Assembly: GCF_025200925.1 (NCBI RefSeq)
Contig: NZ_CP104174.1
Location: forward strand, 6,014,001 to 6,078,000
Direction: 5' to 3'
Length of the DNA stretch: 64,000 nt
DNA from: Bradyrhizobium sp. CB1015
GTDB taxonomy: Bacteria; Pseudomonadota; Alphaproteobacteria; Rhizobiales; Xanthobacteraceae
In this document: positions 25,810 to 34,865 of the stretch, piece after piece
Numbering within the stretch: position 1 is the first letter of the stretch
How the letters are laid out: every line of letters begins with the position of its first letter
The notes under the pieces: model-generated
The model's database searches: none
What the model was told of the DNA's origin: nothing
Seen by the model: only the letters and a program-made list of their open reading frames with translations
Translations under genes and position numbers: made by a program

Positions 25810-26565
25810 TCAGACGCTCACGGACAGCGACGAACCAGCCGTCGACGCGGCGCTTTGCCCCTGCCCGCCTTGCTGCTGCATCAGCTGCGCGAACAGATCA
25901 TAGGCCGAATTCCGCGGGCTGGAAGCGCCCGGCACCGTCGTCGACATCTTGAAGCCGTCGGCATAGGTGACGGTGGTGGTGGTCGAGCCGTCGGCATTGG
26001 TCGTCGTGGTCGACGTCGAGCCGCGGCTGGATTGTGACGAGGAATCCGACCCATCGCCCGCGCCCTGCGCATGATGACGACCGCCCCCCAGCGCCTTCGT
26101 CATCTCTCCGAGATTGATGCTGCCATCCGCATTCGCGTCCATCTTCGAGAACACGTCGTCGGCCTGGGCCAGGTTGGTGCCGCCCGCACCGAGCGCGCCC
26201 TCGAACTCCGACTTGGTGATCTTGCCGTCGCCGTCCGCGTCGATCTGCGAGAACAGGTCCTTCAGGGCGGCCTCACGGCTCTTCGGCGTCGAGGATGTCG
26301 AGCTCGACAAGGCCGCGCCGTCGGCCGACTGGCTCTGCGCCGCGAACAGCGCGTTCATCGTCTCCGACGAGATCTGCGGATATTTGCCTGCATTGACCGA
26401 CGAGGTTGCGCCGGCCGTGCTGCTGCTGCCGCTGTCGATTGCGAACGGATTGGCCGGCGCGCTCTGCGAAGCGCCCGTCTTGTGCGCCGCCGACGACGAT
26501 TTCGAGTTCGTCAGCGACTGGATCGCGTCGAGCGCGCTCGAGACCGCACTTAGGGCGAACAACAT
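25810..26565 (-). CDS. EF-hand calcium-binding protein
   Basis: 251 residues. Two EF-hand loops are clear: DADGDGKITKSEFE (about residue 128) and DANADGSINLGEM (about residue 162), each with calcium ligands at positions 1, 3, 5 and 12. The flanks are low-complexity Ser/Thr/Gln-rich (GSTSTTTTNADGSTTTTVTY), and there is no classic signal peptide; the N-terminus is MLFALSAVSSALDAIQSL. The layout resembles the XopAW-type EF-hand proteins that are secreted in some plant-associated bacteria, but secretion is not shown by sequence. Start supported by GGAG 8 bases before the ATG at 26565. Confidence 0.85.
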   Translation of the reverse strand: MLFALSAVSSALDAIQSLTNSKSSSAAHKTGASQSAPANPFAIDSGSSSTAGATSSVNAGKYPQISSETMNALFAAQSQSADGAALSSSTSSTPKSREAALKDLFSQIDADGDGKITKSEFEGALGAGGTNLAQADDVFSKMDANADGSINLGEMTKALGGGRHHAQGAGDGSDSSSQSSRGSTSTTTTNADGSTTTTVTYADGFKMSTTVPGASSPRNSAYDLFAQLMQQQGGQGQSAASTAGSSLSVSV

Positions 26566-28587: not shown

Positions 28588-28610
28588 GACTTCTTTTCCC
28601 GGACCGCCCC

Positions 28611-28799
28611 ATGAAACCGCATTGCCCGAACTGCCTGAAGGAAATGACCAAGGCGTCCGCGTCGCGTAACCTGTTCAATTGCGAGCCCTGCCGCGAGATC
28701 ATCCAGTATTTCGGCGGCAGCGCGGATCACGGCGAGCGAGGGCCGCAATTCTCCTGGCCGATCCGCCGCAAGCGCGCCATGGCCGTCCACGCGGCCTGA
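28611..28799 (+). CDS. Small zinc-ribbon-like protein
   Basis: 62 residues with a CPNC-N21-CEPC arrangement (MKPHCPNCLKEMTKAS then NCEPCREIIQYFGG), suggestive of a zinc ribbon. The C-terminal half is basic. It lies 23 bases after the preceding small gene on the same strand. No function known. Confidence 0.6.
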   Translation: MKPHCPNCLKEMTKASASRNLFNCEPCREIIQYFGGSADHGERGPQFSWPIRRKRAMAVHAA

Positions 28800-28826
28800 T
28801 CCAGCCCGCAAGTCGCCCCCGCCGGC

Positions 28827-30260
28827 CTAACCTTCGCCGGCCTCCGCTCCCCCGGCGTCCCCCGCCATCCGCGGCGGCCGCACCACGGTGACGGTGCAGC
28901 TCGCCTCCGCGGCCACCTTGGCCGACACGCTGCCGAGCAGGGTGCGCCGGAACGAGCTCTGCCGCGCGCCGATGATGACGTGGTCGACCTGGTTGGCCTC
29001 GGCAAACTCAAGGATCGCGGCGGCGGGGTCGACCGCCTCCAGCACGTGAGCCGACAGCCGGCTCTCGTCCAGCTTGAGCGGCGTTGCCCAATGCCTGAGC
29101 GCGACCAGGCGATCGATGTGCTTGTTGGAGCCCTGCTCGTCCAATGTCCGATCGATCGCGATGCGGTTCAGCTTGAGCACGTTGACGCAGGCAAGCCGCG
29201 CCGACGGCAAGGTGGCGAGGATACGCTCGGTGGTCACGCGCAGCGCCTCGTTCAGCTCCGGAGCGCCCTCCGCGGTGTCGAGCGCAACGGCGAGGATCGG
29301 GCTCGATGCGATCTGGGCTGCCACATCCGATTTCGCGCGCGGCGCCATGGCGCCCTGGTTGAAGCGCCGCCGCCAGGCGACGCCGAGGGAATCGCGTTTC
29401 ACCCGCTCCGAGCGCGCAGTGAGCTTCACCTTGTCCGGATGGGCGAGATCGAAGGCGAGCTGGGACGCCGTCGGATAGCGCCACACCGGCTCGATCTCGA
29501 GACACCGCAACACCACCTCCTGAAGCCAGGGCGGATAATCCGCACGAAGCTTCCGCGGCGGATGCGGATCGCGCCACAGCCGGCGCCGCATCGCCCGCAG
29601 CGTCTCGCCCTCGCCGAACGGCCGCTCGCCGGTGGTGAAGAAGTAGAGCAGCACGCCGAGCGAAAACAGATCGCTGCGCGGATCGTCGCGCACCCCGAGC
29701 AGCCGCTCGGGTGCCATATAGGGCGCGGTGCCGTAAGGCAGGCGGAATTCCTCCTGCAGGAGGTCCGGCAGGTGGTTGTGATGCGACAGGCCGTAGTCGA
29801 TCAGCACCGCTTCGCCGCTCTCGCGGACCATGATGCTGCTCGGCTTGATGTCGTGATGGATCACGTTCTGCCGGTGCAGATCGGCAAGCGCAGTTGCGAT
29901 CCTGGCGACGAGCTGCCGCGCCTCGTCATAGGGCAGCGGCAGGTCGGGGAGCCGCTTGTACAGCGTGGCGCCTGGAATGCGCTCGATCACGACATAGGCT
30001 TGGCGGGCGAAATCGCCGGTGCCGGAGCAGGCCGGCACGTGCGGCCCCGCAAGCCGCGGCAGGATCATCATCTCCATCTCGAAGGACACGATCGCGGCGG
30101 GGTCCTCGCCCTCCGACACCCGCGGGATCTTCATCAGCAGGGGCACGTCGATGCCGGGATGCGTGACGGTCCACAGCGTCGCCATGCCGCCGGCATGAAC
30201 GCATTCGCCGATGATGTAACCGTCGATCTCCGCACCTGATTTCACCAGGGGTTTCGGCAT
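28827..30260 (-). CDS. Ser/Thr protein kinase fused to a universal stress protein domain
   Basis: 477 residues. Residues 10-280 are a Hanks-type kinase: Gly-rich segment GECVHAGGMATLW, Lys44 in LLMKIPRV, catalytic Asp137 in VIHHDIKPSSIM, Asp155 in IDYGLSHH in place of DFG, and the APE-type YMAPERLLG. The catalytic-loop Asn is replaced by Ser142. Residues about 320-463 form a Usp domain ending with the ATP-binding-type GARQSSFRRTLLGSVSAKVA and SCTVTVVRPP. No membrane segment, so cytoplasmic. Starts 6 bases after the phosphoesterase stop; the two are co-transcribed. The fusion suggests stress-responsive signalling, but targets are unknown. Confidence 0.9.
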   Translation of the reverse strand: MPKPLVKSGAEIDGYIIGECVHAGGMATLWTVTHPGIDVPLLMKIPRVSEGEDPAAIVSFEMEMMILPRLAGPHVPACSGTGDFARQAYVVIERIPGATLYKRLPDLPLPYDEARQLVARIATALADLHRQNVIHHDIKPSSIMVRESGEAVLIDYGLSHHNHLPDLLQEEFRLPYGTAPYMAPERLLGVRDDPRSDLFSLGVLLYFFTTGERPFGEGETLRAMRRRLWRDPHPPRKLRADYPPWLQEVVLRCLEIEPVWRYPTASQLAFDLAHPDKVKLTARSERVKRDSLGVAWRRRFNQGAMAPRAKSDVAAQIASSPILAVALDTAEGAPELNEALRVTTERILATLPSARLACVNVLKLNRIAIDRTLDEQGSNKHIDRLVALRHWATPLKLDESRLSAHVLEAVDPAAAILEFAEANQVDHVIIGARQSSFRRTLLGSVSAKVAAEASCTVTVVRPPRMAGDAGGAEAGEG

Positions 30261-30266
30261 CGGCCT

Positions 30267-31007
30267 CTAGCGCCCCAGCGACAGCCGGTCGGCCAGCCAG
30301 GACGGCAGCCCGTTGTCGCGAATCCTGCTTGCTGCGGTCGCGATGTCGTAAGGCGCGCGGCAATAGGTGATCTGGCACGACTCGGTGTCGAACAGTGCGA
30401 AGGCCGCCGACGGATCGCCGTCGCGGGGCTGGCCGACCGAGCCGAGCACGGCGAGCCATTGCCGTCCGCGCAGCAGCTGCACGGGGACGTCGGTCTTCGG
30501 CACGAAGCTCGTCATCTTCGCCGTCACCGACATCGAATAGAGCGCCGGCCTGTGGATGTGGCCGCAAAAGGTGACGTGGGCCTGTGTCGCAATCAGGCTC
30601 TTGGCGGCGTCCACGGTGGTGCGGACATAGTGCCAGCGCTGCGGATGCGAGGCTTCCGCGTGCACGAACAGGCGGCCATCGTCCTCCACCTGGATCGGCA
30701 ATTCGGCCAGGAACCGCCGCTGCGCGGTGTCGAGGCGGCCGCGAGTCCATTCGATCGCGATCTGCGCCTCGGCGTTCATGGTCTCGGCCGTGGAATTGAT
30801 CGCCTGGTCGTGATTGCCGCGCACCGCGACCGCGCCCTGCGCGACCAGCTCCATCGCGGTGTCCACCGCCCATTCCGGATCGGCGCCATAGCCGACGAAG
30901 TCGCCGAGCAGGGCGAACTGCTCCGCGCCCCTGGCGCGGGCAACCTTCAGGCAGGCCTCGAACGCCTGCCGGTTGCCATGGATATCCGAGAAGACAGCGA
31001 GAAGCAC
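30267..31007 (-). CDS. Calcineurin-type metallophosphoesterase
   Basis: 246 residues with the five metal-binding blocks of the family: FSDIHGN (start), LLGDFVGYGADPEW, VRGNHDQAINS, FVHAEASHPQ and TFCGHIHRPAL. Class closest to the YfcE/ApaH-like single-domain group. Directly upstream of the Usp-kinase by 6 bases, a phosphatase-kinase pair that may act on the same targets or on a nucleotide signal; this is inferred from the gene order only. Confidence 0.9.
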   Translation of the reverse strand: MLLAVFSDIHGNRQAFEACLKVARARGAEQFALLGDFVGYGADPEWAVDTAMELVAQGAVAVRGNHDQAINSTAETMNAEAQIAIEWTRGRLDTAQRRFLAELPIQVEDDGRLFVHAEASHPQRWHYVRTTVDAAKSLIATQAHVTFCGHIHRPALYSMSVTAKMTSFVPKTDVPVQLLRGRQWLAVLGSVGQPRDGDPSAAFALFDTESCQITYCRAPYDIATAASRIRDNGLPSWLADRLSLGR

Positions 31008-31124
31008 GCACCCTCCACCCTCAAATTCTTATTGGAGGCCGATGAGGCCAAATTGAGGGACGTCAACAAGATGCGCCAGCACCGCGCCGTTTGCCAGCAC
31101 TGCCCTGCGGTGATGGTGAAGGGC

Positions 31125-31730
31125 CTATTGCTCGTCCTTCGGCGGCATTCGGGGCGGTGGAATCGGGGTGAATACCGCGCCTTCCGCGCCGGCCGGCGGG
31201 GCATTGAACTCGCCGGTCGAGGAATCGCCGCCGCTGGTCTCCAGGATGGTCTTCGGCGTCACATATTCCCGGACCATGTCGATCAGGCTGCCGTCGCCGC
31301 CGCCGAAATCCGCGGCGCGCCCTCCTTGCGGATGACCCGCCGCGATCTCGTTCTCCGCGGCGTGGGTCTTGTCCGCCAGCCGGTCATTGTAGGGCACACG
31401 AAAGGCGCGCGGGATGCCGCTCGGCCGATTGTCCTCGTCCAGCGCCTCGACCCAGAGGTAGATCGAGCCGGGGTCGCCCTGAAGCGAATGCGGCTCGACG
31501 ATGCGGGCCTTCAGCAGCTTGAAGGTGGCCGGCAGCCGGTCGGAGCTGGCCCAGCCGAGCAGCCCGCGCATTTCGGTGAAGCTGACGATGTAGAAGGTGC
31601 TGGTCACGACCACGGCGATCGCCTTCAGCGACCAGTGCAGACGCGCATAGACCAGAACGACCAGCAGCAGTGCGCCGATGACGGCATAGGCGACCGACAG
31701 CGTCAGGATGACCGTTTGCGGATTACTCAC
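31125..31730 (-). CDS. Hypothetical two-TM protein of the ExbB/ExbD-like operon
   Basis: 201 residues: two N-terminal membrane segments (about residues 6-27 and 34-52), then a soluble part with a central strand-rich region (GSIYLWVEALDEDNRPSGIP) and a Pro-rich C-terminus (PIPPPRMPPKDEQ). I do not recognise the family. Starts with GTG and overlaps the ExbD-like gene by 8 bases, so it is made with it. Confidence 0.75.
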   Translation of the reverse strand: MSNPQTVILTLSVAYAVIGALLLVVLVYARLHWSLKAIAVVVTSTFYIVSFTEMRGLLGWASSDRLPATFKLLKARIVEPHSLQGDPGSIYLWVEALDEDNRPSGIPRAFRVPYNDRLADKTHAAENEIAAGHPQGGRAADFGGGDGSLIDMVREYVTPKTILETSGGDSSTGEFNAPPAGAEGAVFTPIPPPRMPPKDEQ

Positions 31731-32394
31731 GGCGCACCCTCACCCGGGTCTTCGGATCGACATCGGCGCCGTTGCGCCAGCTGCTTCGGAACGTCTCCAG
31801 CAGCGATTTCGGGCGCTGATCGACATTGACGACCTTGCCTTCCGCATCGATGCGGAATCGGACCGCGGTCTTCTCGTCGCCGGTGTGGTCGAGCGTGAAC
31901 TTGTTGTCGAAGATCACCTGCGCAGTCGGATTGAGCTTCTGCACCTTCACATTGGCCGTCACAGGCTCGCCGGTGGTGGCGACGAAATGCGAGACGTTGA
32001 CGGTGTATTCCCCGGCGAGGATGCCGCGCACGGTGACGATCTCCTCGCGGATGGGCGAGGCGATCCTCTTGCCGTTGACGACGATGAAATCGTTGGCTCC
32101 GCCGCGGTCGTCGCGGTCGAGTGTCAGGAAGCCGGCCTCGCGGTGGCGATACCAGGCGATGTTGCCGGCGGGATCCTGCACGAACAGGTCGAGATCGTCG
32201 GGGTGATTGTCCGGCCAGTCCAGCGTGATCATGAACTCCGCCTTGGAGTCGATCTTGCCGTCCTTGGCATCCGGGGAGACCGCGAGCAACGCCAGGAAGA
32301 ACAGGAACGCGATCACCTGGAGCGCCTTGAACAGCATCACGCCCAGCGGGTCGAACGGCTCCTCGCGCGGATAGAGACCGAAATCATCCATCAT
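31723..32394 (-). CDS. ExbD-like single-pass protein with a periplasmic beta domain
   Basis: 223 residues with one membrane helix (about residues 16-38, FDPLGVMLFKALQVIAFLFF), preceded by a short cytoplasmic tail: ExbD/TolR topology. The periplasmic part contains a strand-rich region with WPDNHPDDLDLFVQDPAGNI, similar to DUF2135-type domains, then a second beta region. The usual ExbD intramembrane Asp is not at its expected place; the helix has Asp at its start and a Lys inside. Translation is coupled to the upstream channel gene (ATGA). Confidence 0.75.
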   Translation of the reverse strand: MMDDFGLYPREEPFDPLGVMLFKALQVIAFLFFLALLAVSPDAKDGKIDSKAEFMITLDWPDNHPDDLDLFVQDPAGNIAWYRHREAGFLTLDRDDRGGANDFIVVNGKRIASPIREEIVTVRGILAGEYTVNVSHFVATTGEPVTANVKVQKLNPTAQVIFDNKFTLDHTGDEKTAVRFRIDAEGKVVNVDQRPKSLLETFRSSWRNGADVDPKTRVRVRRE

Positions 32395-33176
32395 GACGGC
32401 GTTCCGGCGCCTTTAATTCCAGCGCCTTTGCGCTCGAGGACCGGCGTCACATAGGTCTCGGTCAGCACCACCGCGTCCGAGAACACCCGCTGGGTCGCGG
32501 CATCCAGCATGTAGTACTGGATGCGGACCAGGATCGAGCCGACGAGGCCGGCGAGCGTGGTGTACATCGCGACCGCCATGCCGTCGCTCATCAAGCCCAT
32601 CGAGGAGCGCATCGCGACCTTGTCGGCGGCATCCAGCCCCGCGATCGGCGCCAGCATGATGATGAAGCCGATGATGGTGCCGAGCAGGCCGAGCTTCATC
32701 AGCGTGTCGGAGACGAAGGCCCCGAAGCCGTTGGAGCCGCGCAGGCGATCGGCGAGCGTCCGCAGCAGCAGCGTCTGATCGACCGGGCGATAATCCTGCG
32801 CGGCGGCCTTGGTCACCAGGCTTTCGATATGGTCGCGCACCAGACCACGCGGCAGCGCCACCGCGCTCGCATCGAGCGCCTTGCTGCCGCCGGTCGCCGA
32901 CAGCACTGCGCGGCAGCGCCGCGCCGCCGCCCCTTCCCGCGCGATCGCCCGCGTCCGCAGGAAGCAATGGCCGCAGGTGACGACATAGAGCGCCGCGATG
33001 ACGCTGGAAATGTAGGTGCGGTCCGAGGTCAACATCAGATGGATCAGGCCGAAGCGCCACAGCAGCACGACGGCGAAGATCGACAGCCCGGTGAAGATCA
33101 TCCAGAACAACAGCGCGCTCCGCTCGGATGGATCGGCCGCCTGGCTCGCGATTGGTCCAATCGTCATCGAACTCAT
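32391..33176 (-). CDS. MotA/TolQ/ExbB-like proton channel protein
   Basis: 261 residues. Four hydrophobic segments; the last two, GLLGTIIGFIIMLAPIAGLD and AVAMYTTLAGLVGSILVRIQ, carry the TolQ/ExbB/MotA signature with the polar Thr residues of the proton path. A large cytoplasmic loop (about 65-155) lies between TM2 and TM3. The start at 33176 has AGGAG upstream; a longer frame was rejected. First gene of the operon with the ExbD-like and two-TM proteins. What the channel energises is unknown. Confidence 0.85.
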   Translation of the reverse strand: MSSMTIGPIASQAADPSERSALLFWMIFTGLSIFAVVLLWRFGLIHLMLTSDRTYISSVIAALYVVTCGHCFLRTRAIAREGAAARRCRAVLSATGGSKALDASAVALPRGLVRDHIESLVTKAAAQDYRPVDQTLLLRTLADRLRGSNGFGAFVSDTLMKLGLLGTIIGFIIMLAPIAGLDAADKVAMRSSMGLMSDGMAVAMYTTLAGLVGSILVRIQYYMLDAATQRVFSDAVVLTETYVTPVLERKGAGIKGAGTPS

Positions 33177-33563
33177 GCTGCACCGCTCCTGGCTTGCAAG
33201 CACCGGCCTGCAACGTGTCCTCACCGATTAGATCAAAGCCGCCGTTTCAGGTCCAAAGACCCATGCCCAATCCGGCTTGGGAAATTTGCCCGAGCTGCAA
33301 TCCCGACGTTCGCTGCGATTGGCAAGGCACGCTGCGTTGTCAGGCTGACCTTACCAAACGTCGGGGGTGATCGCATGCGCCTCGTGCTTCAGCTTATAGC
33401 CCGCCTGCTTCGGATCGTAGCGCTGTGACCGGTGGGCTGACGCGGATTTAGCAGCAAAGCTGCCACACAGCCTCATCCCTTGAGGGGCCTTCAATCTGCT
33501 GAACGAAATTGGAACGGTTCCGATCCGGCTCCGGTTAGTACGGCAGAGAAGGAGTAAAGGGTC
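33177..33563. other. Gene-free stretch holding divergent promoters
   Basis: The region between the ExbB-like gene and the small plus-strand gene at 33564. It contains an EcfG-like promoter (33511-33536) for the latter. A 35-codon Cys-containing frame at 33263-33370 has no ribosome site and is not annotated. I see no RNA gene or repeat here. Confidence 0.5.
33511..33536 (+). promoter_or_regulatory. EcfG-like promoter
   Basis: GGAAC (33511-33515), 17 bases, GGTT (33533-33536): one mismatch to the EcfG pattern GGAAC-N16/17-CGTT of alphaproteobacterial general stress genes. The expected start would be near 33543, giving a leader of about 20 bases that still contains the GAAGGAG ribosome site before 33564. 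Confidence 0.45.
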
Positions 33564-33869
33564 ATGAGTAAGGGTCACCCCAAAGCAGTCGACCATCCCC
33601 CGATCATCACCGTAGGCGAGCTCATCGACGAACTTTGCCGCCTGCCGGACACGGCCATCGTCCACTTTCGCTGCCCGATGTTCGATCAGGAGCTGACATT
33701 CTACCGGCTTCGAAGGCGGTCAAAGGACGCCGTCGAAATCGCGGTCAATGTGTATCCGGATAGTCCGCCGGTCGTGCCCTCGTCCGATCCTGCCTTCCAC
33801 ACGCGAAGACATTCTTCATCCGCGCCCTCGCTCCGCGACGGCGCCGCTCTCCAAAAGACCCGAGGTTGA
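33564..33869 (+). CDS. Hypothetical protein with probable stress promoter
   Basis: 101 residues. The N-terminal 70 residues look ordered (IITVGELIDELCRLPDTAIV, FRCPMFDQELTFYRLRRRSK), while the rest is low-complexity and runs up to the start of the adjacent repeat, so it may be an extension created by repeat sequence. GAAGGAG lies 9 bases before the ATG. I recognise no family. The upstream EcfG-like promoter suggests a general stress role. Confidence 0.6.
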   Translation: MSKGHPKAVDHPPIITVGELIDELCRLPDTAIVHFRCPMFDQELTFYRLRRRSKDAVEIAVNVYPDSPPVVPSSDPAFHTRRHSSSAPSLRDGAALQKTRG

Positions 33870-33888
33870 TTGAGAGCACCCAGGGGAG

Positions 33889-34055
33889 CGCTCACCCTCC
33901 CCCTGGAGGGGAGGGGCGGCATGCTATCGAGCGAAGCGAGATTGCATGACGGGGTGGGGTGACAGTCTCTCGACCGATACGGTGCCCGCGTGGAGAGATC
34001 ACCCCACCCCGCTAGCGCTTCGCGCGATCGACCCTCCCCCTCCAGGGCAGGGCTA
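33889..34055. repeat. CACCCTCCCCCTGGAGGGG-type palindromic repeat
   Basis: Contains ACCCTCCCCCTGGAGGGG at the left, ACGGGGTGGGGTGA and its complement TCACCCCACCCCG in the middle, and CCCTCCCCCTCCAGGGCAGG at the right. A further fragment (AGCCCTGCCCTCCAGGGGAG) occurs inverted at 34249-34270, beyond the second element. Confidence 0.7.
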
Positions 34056-34081
34056 TCGCATTTGAGAATTTTCCCTGCGGC

Positions 34082-34213
34082 CATCCTTCGAGACGCCCGC
34101 TTTGGGCGGGCTCCTCAGGATGAGGGCGGAGTGCGCGGCATCAGTTTCAACAAGCACTGACGCTGATTAGCCTCATCCTGAGGAGGCGCATAAGCGCCGT
34201 CTCGAAGGACGAG
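34082..34213. repeat. CATCCTTCGAGACG palindromic repeat
   Basis: Left arm CATCCTTCGAGACGCCCGC, right arm GCGCCGTCTCGAAGGACGAG, with inner CTCCTCAGGATGAGG and CCTCATCCTGAGGAGG. It appears to have inserted inside the preceding repeat, since AGGGCAGGGCTATCGCAT occurs inverted on both sides of it. Confidence 0.75.
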
Positions 34214-34280
34214 GCGTGCGCGCAGGCCGCCGCCACGAGTGATATGCGATAGCCCTGCCCTCCAGGGGAGGGTAAGAGCA

Positions 34281-34865
34281 TCAAGCCTTCAGCCCACGCA
34301 GCAGCAGCGCCAGCGTCGCATCGACGCGCGCGGGGAGATCGGCGTCCTTCCATTCCTCGGCATGGGCCGGATGGTGGAAGCGGACGGTCGCATCGAAGAT
34401 CGCGCGCGCGGTCGCCTTGGCGTCGCCCACGGCGAACTCGCCCCGCTTCACGCCGTCGGTCAGGATCGCCGCGATCTGGTCGATCATGGTGTCCTTGTGG
34501 CATTTGACGGCCGCGCAGGCCTCGCGTGCCAGGGTCAGATAAGTCTGGAACATCTCGGGGTCGTCGAGCACACGCGAACGCTTGGCTGCGAACAACGTGC
34601 GCAGCCAGCGGTCGAGCCTGTCGGGCGCCGGCCCCTGCTCCTTGGCGATCGCCAGCAGCGGGGCGTCGATGCGGTCCAGCCAGCGCTTGGCAACGGCCTC
34701 GCGCAGCGAGGCCTTGCTGGGGAAATGGCGGTAGACGCTGCCGTGGCTCACATCGAGCGCACGGGCAACGTCGACCACGGTGGCCTTGGCGAGTCCGTAG
34801 CGCCTGAGCACGTCCTCGGTGACTTCGAGGATCCGCTCCGGCGTCAAGACAACGGCTTCATTCAT
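34281..34865 (-). CDS. TetR family transcriptional regulator
   Basis: 194 residues. N-terminal helix-turn-helix with KATVVDVARALDVSHGSVYR (about residues 27-46). C-terminal ligand domain with FKTYLTLAREACAA-like helix (here MFQTYLTLAREACAAVKCHK). No neighbouring target gene is obvious; a palindrome at 35193-35216 lies 330 bases upstream. The ligand is unknown. Confidence 0.88.
   Translation of the reverse strand: MNEAVVLTPERILEVTEDVLRRYGLAKATVVDVARALDVSHGSVYRHFPSKASLREAVAKRWLDRIDAPLLAIAKEQGPAPDRLDRWLRTLFAAKRSRVLDDPEMFQTYLTLAREACAAVKCHKDTMIDQIAAILTDGVKRGEFAVGDAKATARAIFDATVRFHHPAHAEEWKDADLPARVDATLALLLRGLKA

Follow-up and report, generated by a model that had tools for sequence, protein, structure and literature searches.

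A conserved ExbB-type membrane cassette with two exclusive forms of its single-helix protein, and a separable phosphoesterase-kinase pair, in Bradyrhizobium sp. CB1015

Five minus-strand genes of Bradyrhizobium sp. CB1015, here called A to E, lie within a stretch of 64,000 nucleotides (contig NZ_CP104174.1, positions 6,014,001 to 6,078,000; hereafter the window) and raise the question of whether an ExbB-type membrane complex and a kinase-phosphoesterase pair form one energised unit, as a preliminary description made from the sequence alone had proposed. Comparison with relatives revealed that A-B-C is a fixed cassette and D-E a separate module, and the strongest new point, drawn from aligned sequences, is an exclusive Asp/Lys switch in the putative axle helix of B together with a matched change in the putative ring protein A. 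The preliminary description had joined a real and unusual cassette to the wrong partner. Its five open reading frames (ORFs), with their overlaps and gaps, were all confirmed:

32391-33176, minus strand: gene A, 261 amino acids, ExbB/TolQ/MotA-family membrane protein; ATG start, the ORF extending to 33224
31723-32394, minus strand: gene B, 223 amino acids, single N-terminal membrane helix and predicted beta-sandwich; 4-base overlap with A
31125-31730, minus strand: gene C, 201 amino acids, two membrane helices and a small beta-alpha domain, without a family; 8-base overlap with B
30267-31007, minus strand: gene D, 246 amino acids, calcineurin-like metallophosphoesterase; GTG start, 117 bases downstream of C
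28827-30260, minus strand: gene E, Ser/Thr kinase fused to a universal stress protein (Usp) domain; 6 bases downstream of D

In Pfam, A matched MotA_ExbB (PF01618; E 1.4e-8, 35 bits, above the curated cut-off of 22.9), D matched Metallophos_2 (PF12850; E 2.9e-19) and E matched both Pkinase (PF00069; E 1.5e-27) and Usp (PF00582; E 3.4e-15), the kinase spanning approximately residues 13-275 and the Usp domain residues 326-461. Against the PDB, the best match of the A profile was 8vvn (E 1.7e-4), titled MotA/TolQ/ExbB proton channel domain-containing protein, followed by the motility protein A structure 8gqy (E 0.0026), while D matched 3rqz over residues 3-245 (E 1.4e-31) and E matched PknB structures (E about 1e-27). 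Neither B nor C matched a Pfam, NCBIfam or PADLOC family at E<=1, apart from one low-scoring NCBIfam match of B (14.1 bits versus a cut-off of 1100), in agreement with the earlier view that the third protein, C, belongs to no known family.

Two exclusive forms of B and matched changes in A

As in ExbB-ExbD and TolQ-TolR, a MotA_ExbB ring-type protein is followed here by a protein that has one helix and an additional domain, and by this architecture and gene order B can be described as ExbD-like. Unlike those systems, the domain of B is a beta-sandwich according to the structure model, which probably lies on the periplasmic side, and a constant third protein, C, is present. Fold matches tentatively suggest that this domain resembles TerD in fold only. 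Two parts of B are referred to below:

32317-32340, minus strand: K-form site in the membrane helix, with Val19 (Asp in the D-form), Lys23 (Asn in the D-form) and Gln26 (Leu/Ile in the D-form)
31819-32235, minus strand: beta domain, residues 54-192, tentatively TerD-like

The earlier label of a DUF2135-like domain fits some relatives, 22 of the 49 members of a B alignment matching PF09906 weakly (no better than E 0.0014, in a scan run at E<=10) and a few being named 'YfaP (DUF2135 family)' in a source, whereas the window protein has no such match.

The membrane helix of B occurs as a D-form, typically DPFTDLLFN, or as a K-form, typically DPxx[AV]xLFK, and the window protein is of the K-form. 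All 74 D-form rows of the alignment carry Asn at the later place and Asp was seen in each of them. The 41 rows from the genus of the window, and the gammaproteobacterial locus L101 (L and G numbers are our handles for loci and genomes), read DPxx[VA]xLFK and have Gln as the third residue after the Lys, and at two gammaproteobacterial K-form loci FDV replaces FDP. Among 357 matches listed, which were collected as the closest hits to three queries (best 120 of 3421, 1498 and 1849 matches) rather than sampled at random, the residue pair was Asp/Asn in 123, Val/Lys in 119 and Ala/Lys in 108, it was mixed in none and the pattern left 7 unread, with the expected Asp gone in 227 of the 357. An AlphaFold2 model of B (mean pLDDT, the predicted local distance difference test, 86.3) shows residues 16-38 as one helix with Asp15 just before it, and because these residues were modelled as one helix, residues 19, 23 and 26 would fall on one helix face by helix arithmetic, with Lys23 a single turn from Val19.

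According to excerpts of PMC9389320, a conserved Asp on the MotB helix is the proton-binding site and the same Asp is present in TolR and AglQ/S. D-form B resembles ExbD and TolR in having an Asp at the start of its helix, but at the place that would correspond, by position and gene order, to the Asp of ExbD and MotB in mid-membrane, the window protein has Val19, Asp being found there in D-form relatives only. Describing the complex as energised, as had been done earlier, is doubtful for this locus because B has no Asp where the proton carrier would be expected.

The switch in B is accompanied by changes in A, where Phe72 and Phe151 of the window protein go with the K-form. In one alignment, all 9 K rows have Phe at position 151, as against none of the 26 D rows, and position 72 is Phe, Leu or Met in the K rows (4, 4 and 1, respectively) and Ala or Gly in 23 of the 26 D rows; in a wider alignment with 74 D rows, Phe stays below 6% at both positions. 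The conserved Thr and Gly of the last two helices of A are kept in both forms.

Bradyrhizobium likely gained the K-form separately, as judged from the trees. On a beta-domain tree of B calculated with the membrane and trait columns left out (28 K rows), the K-form needs six changes, and the grouping of all K-form beta domains as one clade was rejected (approximately unbiased test, p-AU 4.16e-6). The A tree (11 K rows) places the gammaproteobacterial K sequences, including L101, in one clade (100/99) and the Bradyrhizobium group in another, 0 of 200 bootstrap trees uniting the two. L101 combines a K-type A with a beta domain that falls among D-forms, a mismatch that is a sign of reassortment between motor part and head, with A known for only six gammaproteobacterial K loci.

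Other explanations of the K-form helix were tried and dropped. The interleaved beta domains on the tree had suggested a heterodimer of D-form and K-form B, and six K-form gammaproteobacterial genomes (G522, G624, G665, G741, G773 and G865) each have one B match. A new acid in A that could pair with Lys23 was sought in the Asp of the window's SDGMAVAM, which is missing from the K-form locus L101 and has an Asp counterpart in the D-form locus L071, and in a by-eye search of the membrane helices of C no acid stood out.

The trio and the pair as separate modules

Each protein was sought in 100 genomes, of which 60, counting the window's, belong to the genus and 40 to other families of the order, with cut-offs of 1e-60 for E, 1e-20 for D and 1e-90 for a divergent histidine kinase (HK; H in the patterns), and two more distant B matches were excluded from the other-family tally. 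The genus genomes showed the gene-presence patterns HABCDE (39), ABCDE (5), HABCD (4), DE (5), BCDE (2) and none (5). Where both genes were present in a genus genome, A and B were adjacent in 48 of 48 cases, B and C in 50 of 50 and D and E in 51 of 51, which bears out the earlier notion of an ExbB-type trio with an unusual B domain as a conserved cassette. The five-gene order is not a chance one, because gene order is conserved in relatives; C and D, in contrast, lie within 300 bases of each other in only 26 of the 50 genus genomes with both (26 of the 60 sampled), the remaining pairs being 1.1 to 9.2 kb apart (19) or on different contigs (5).

The modules were also found apart in both directions. 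The trio occurs without D-E in three other-family genomes, which are all those surveyed with A, B and C, while D-E occurs without A in three other-family and seven genus genomes; the three other-family genomes have none of A-B-C, and five of the seven lack B and C as well. Four genus genomes have A-B-C and D but no E match at 1e-60. A one-genome-per-species scan yielded 73 loci with B outside the genus, and in none of these 73 was a D- or E-like gene found (tblastn at 1e-4 over flanks of up to 8 kb, often shorter). The trio is thus found without the kinase pair, an observation that the preliminary description had itself named as one that would separate the two, and these surveys rule out a five-gene unit as the general arrangement. 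Some genus genomes have a TetR gene between C and D, and in L031, L050 and the window it is situated beyond A; its position differs between genomes, and the trio has therefore changed place relative to it.

Within the gap between C and D, conservation is located directly before D, where the following element lies:

31053-31066, no strand: TTGA-N6-TCAA box (FixK2/FNR-type), with its start 59 bases ahead of the GTG of D, inside the 117-base C-D gap

Of 38 D-bearing loci (the window's own, L001, counted), 30 carry the box upstream of D at a distance of 57 to 60 bases, among them L031, L032, L036, L037 and L047, whose trio is kilobases off or missing. Its independence from the trio, next to the separability of the modules, speaks against the earlier assignment of kinase and phosphoesterase to the trio. 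The window contains three copies of the pattern against an expectation of 0.34, and the evidence is therefore its conservation and not its presence alone. The window box fits the FixK2 consensus TTGA/C-N6-T/GCAA given in excerpts of PMC9104804, where the FixK2 table includes a universal stress protein. A search of PMC6515984 gave no mention of a phosphoesterase or protein kinase. D-E might possibly be switched on under low oxygen through this FixK-type site of their own. A promoter and terminator scan of 28600-34300 gave 0 sigma-70 sites (shuffle mean 0.8) and a single terminator-like site, at 32398 of the plus strand (shuffle mean 2.5).

Some additional observations concern the pair. In G028 (L048, 3528-3674) E is shrunk to a 49-residue match next to an intact D, in G031 (L037, 13358-14782) E is broken into pieces, and in G038, G039 and G057 D is present with no E match at 1e-60. 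A protein encoded at 25810-26565 of the window, beyond rpe, stays near D-E in several genus genomes and has DxDxDG motifs, which we take to be EF-hand-like.

The divergent two-component system and the readings of the complex

The steadiest neighbour of the trio in the genus is a divergent two-component system, consisting of a NarL-type histidine kinase (HisKA_3, HATPase_c) and a LuxR-type regulator. Of the 48 genus genomes with A, 43 have the HK arranged head to head with it, compared with 0 of the 12 lacking A; the HK lies beside A in all 43 genus genomes that have it, these counts ignoring kinship. No HK match at 1e-90 was obtained despite the presence of A in the window's genome and in G012, G026, G030 and G035. 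In the window, the homology to L050 stops at kinase codon 17 and resumes just behind the regulator, with approximately 1.95 kb lost and about 7 shared bases at the deletion joint (region noted as window 33375-33778), leaving:

33375-33425, plus strand: histidine kinase remnant, first 17 codons (tblastn and blastn versus L050)

The best match to this kinase elsewhere in the window's genome has 34% identity. Similar kinase-regulator pairs, labelled by BLAST to L050 only, were found beside A of a K-form trio in another genus of the family (L237) and at a gammaproteobacterial D-form locus (L239), where the regulator lies two genes from A. Expression of the trio, or a signal from it, would appear to be normally tied to this two-component system.

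Overall, we favour, with moderate confidence, an ExbB/ExbD-like complex that has been shifted off the Asp-based cycle, accompanied by D-E as an independent pair of a phosphoesterase and a kinase-Usp protein. A would form a ring, B a single-helix axle with a periplasmic beta-sandwich head and C an added two-helix subunit, in an assembly of the 5:2 type. Such a K-form complex should be unable to run the standard Asp protonation cycle, because the Asp that one would expect to face the ring is absent from B, which instead has Lys23 and Gln26; either Lys23 would join an altered ion cycle, or the complex would be a non-conducting relay between periplasm and ring. Several observations weigh against this reading. 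Profiles of B gave no significant hhalign match to 15 ExbD/TolR sequences of relatives, with which B would have no more than a single short helix in common; the earlier term ExbD-like stands on architecture and gene order, and the axle role is assigned from position and gene order because no sequence homology to ExbD/TolR is detectable. Asp15, which precedes the lost Asp by four residues, is retained by almost every form and could serve in its place, and K-form A as one clade was not rejected (p-AU 0.18), which tempers the case for separate origins. As to D-E, the box is absent from 8 of the 38 loci (L014, L033, L034, L035, L043, L044, L045 and L048), and L014 belongs to the window's own clade.

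How the K-form complex would work is less certain than its departure from the Asp cycle. A lysine-based 5:2 rotary motor, in which Asp was replaced, probably more than once, by a membrane Lys that shares its helix face with a Gln, with the ring matched and the type of periplasmic head unchanged, is a tentative proposal; if true, ions or force would be coupled by a chemistry unlike that known for the Mot, Exb, Tol, Agl and Zor motors. Equally tentative is the idea that the K-form trio does no work and, as a non-conducting relay, senses the periplasm and signals to the divergent two-component system. The constant company of HK and A in the genus, the similar pair beside the K-form trio of L237 and the histidine kinase and sigma-54 regulator genes near many gammaproteobacterial loci are consistent with a relay, but five genus genomes including the window's have A without HK, the closeness in Gammaproteobacteria may be inherited gene order and kinase genes are also present at D-form loci. 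An ordinary proton-driven motor like ExbBD or TolQR, with Asp-to-Val and Asn-to-Lys as neutral changes and another acid such as Asp15 carrying the proton, would explain the Thr and Gly retained in A and the near invariance of Asp15; we consider it unlikely, since the change is all-or-none, brings Lys and Gln together and is accompanied by changes in A. Asp15 is also no newcomer replacing the lost Asp, because the D-form has it too. Control of the trio's activity by the kinase and phosphoesterase, with all five genes as one unit, would fit the same strand and the close spacing in 26 of the 60 genus genomes, and a VWA-FHA gene directly follows C in several gammaproteobacterial loci, the FHA domain being one that would bind phosphothreonine. 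The occurrence of the modules apart, the box of D's own in most loci, the absence of an E-like gene from the flanks searched at all 73 loci outside the genus and the four genus genomes with A-B-C-D but no E match make this very improbable. Least credible of all is a Zorya-like anti-phage motor. The best PDB match of A, 8vvn, is presumably ZorA, and A weakly resembles ZorA in its channel helices (best PADLOC ZorA match 1.5e-6), but it reaches only 14.5 to 16.4 bits with NCBIfam ZorA versus cut-offs of 100 to 700, no PADLOC family, and so no ZorB partner, was matched by B or C at E<=1, and the trio is a steady chromosomal feature in most of the sampled genus genomes.

D-form and K-form gammaproteobacterial loci occupy the same chromosomal site, and a natural Asp-less subfamily sharing it with Asp-bearing sisters provides matched pairs, on which one could examine if work depends on the Asp or if rings of this kind may act as relays.

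The trio outside the genus

By their titles, the 73 loci outside the genus belong to Gammaproteobacteria, Burkholderiales, Hyphomicrobiales and other Pseudomonadota, with 'Bacterium MnTg02' as the exception. B was present in 14 of 398 genomes sampled across the phylum, a count that includes the window's genome, and in 38 of 369 genomes from the class of G340, a genome picked because it bears B. A search of open-access literature (titles and abstract openings) found no description of an A-B-C cassette, and the trio would thus enlarge the known set of envelope genes in many environmental Pseudomonadota. The window's genome has five further MotA_ExbB and two further ExbD matches elsewhere. An A-B fusion in the protein database (P0067) was attributed, as a matter of judgement, to a frame error.

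Neighbours were named by Pfam, with one representative scanned per neighbour cluster. Many gammaproteobacterial loci have the order YkuD L,D-transpeptidase, DUF302, A, B, C and VWA-FHA, with a histidine kinase and a sigma-54 regulator on one flank and four more genes on the other, which by their sequences, without a family search, look like tilS, accA, dnaE and rnhB. TonB, TolA, TolB and Pal were not found among the scanned representatives, which make up a minority of the neighbours. The transpeptidase neighbour might hint at a role in peptidoglycan or envelope upkeep, which is a guess. In Hyphomicrobiales and Granulosicoccaceae, a Sel1-repeat gene often precedes A, and in Thiothrix and Thiodiazotropha an unassigned gene follows C, with quinoprotein-relay genes nearby. 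In Thiodiazotropha-type and Granulosicoccaceae loci, these PQQ (pyrroloquinoline quinone) quinoprotein-relay genes (L088, 13165-14106; L094, 9002-10030; L057, 2168-2983) comprise a SoxYZ-like carrier, zinc metallohydrolase 1 and a CXXCW protein. A bufferin-maturase gene (MNIO_BufB) and its neighbour lie beside the trio in five Hyphomicrobiales loci (e.g., L086, 9834-11516).

C is present in two full tandem copies in all five loci of one K-form gammaproteobacterial clade (L229-L233), and L037 has a partial second copy. Duplication of C as a mark of the K-form was dropped, as the D-form locus L119 also has two copies and L101 and Bradyrhizobium have one. In addition, a distant trio was found at L041 (3301-5043) and L042 (8752-10435), in which B has Arg-Asp (FRD) where Lys or Asn is expected.

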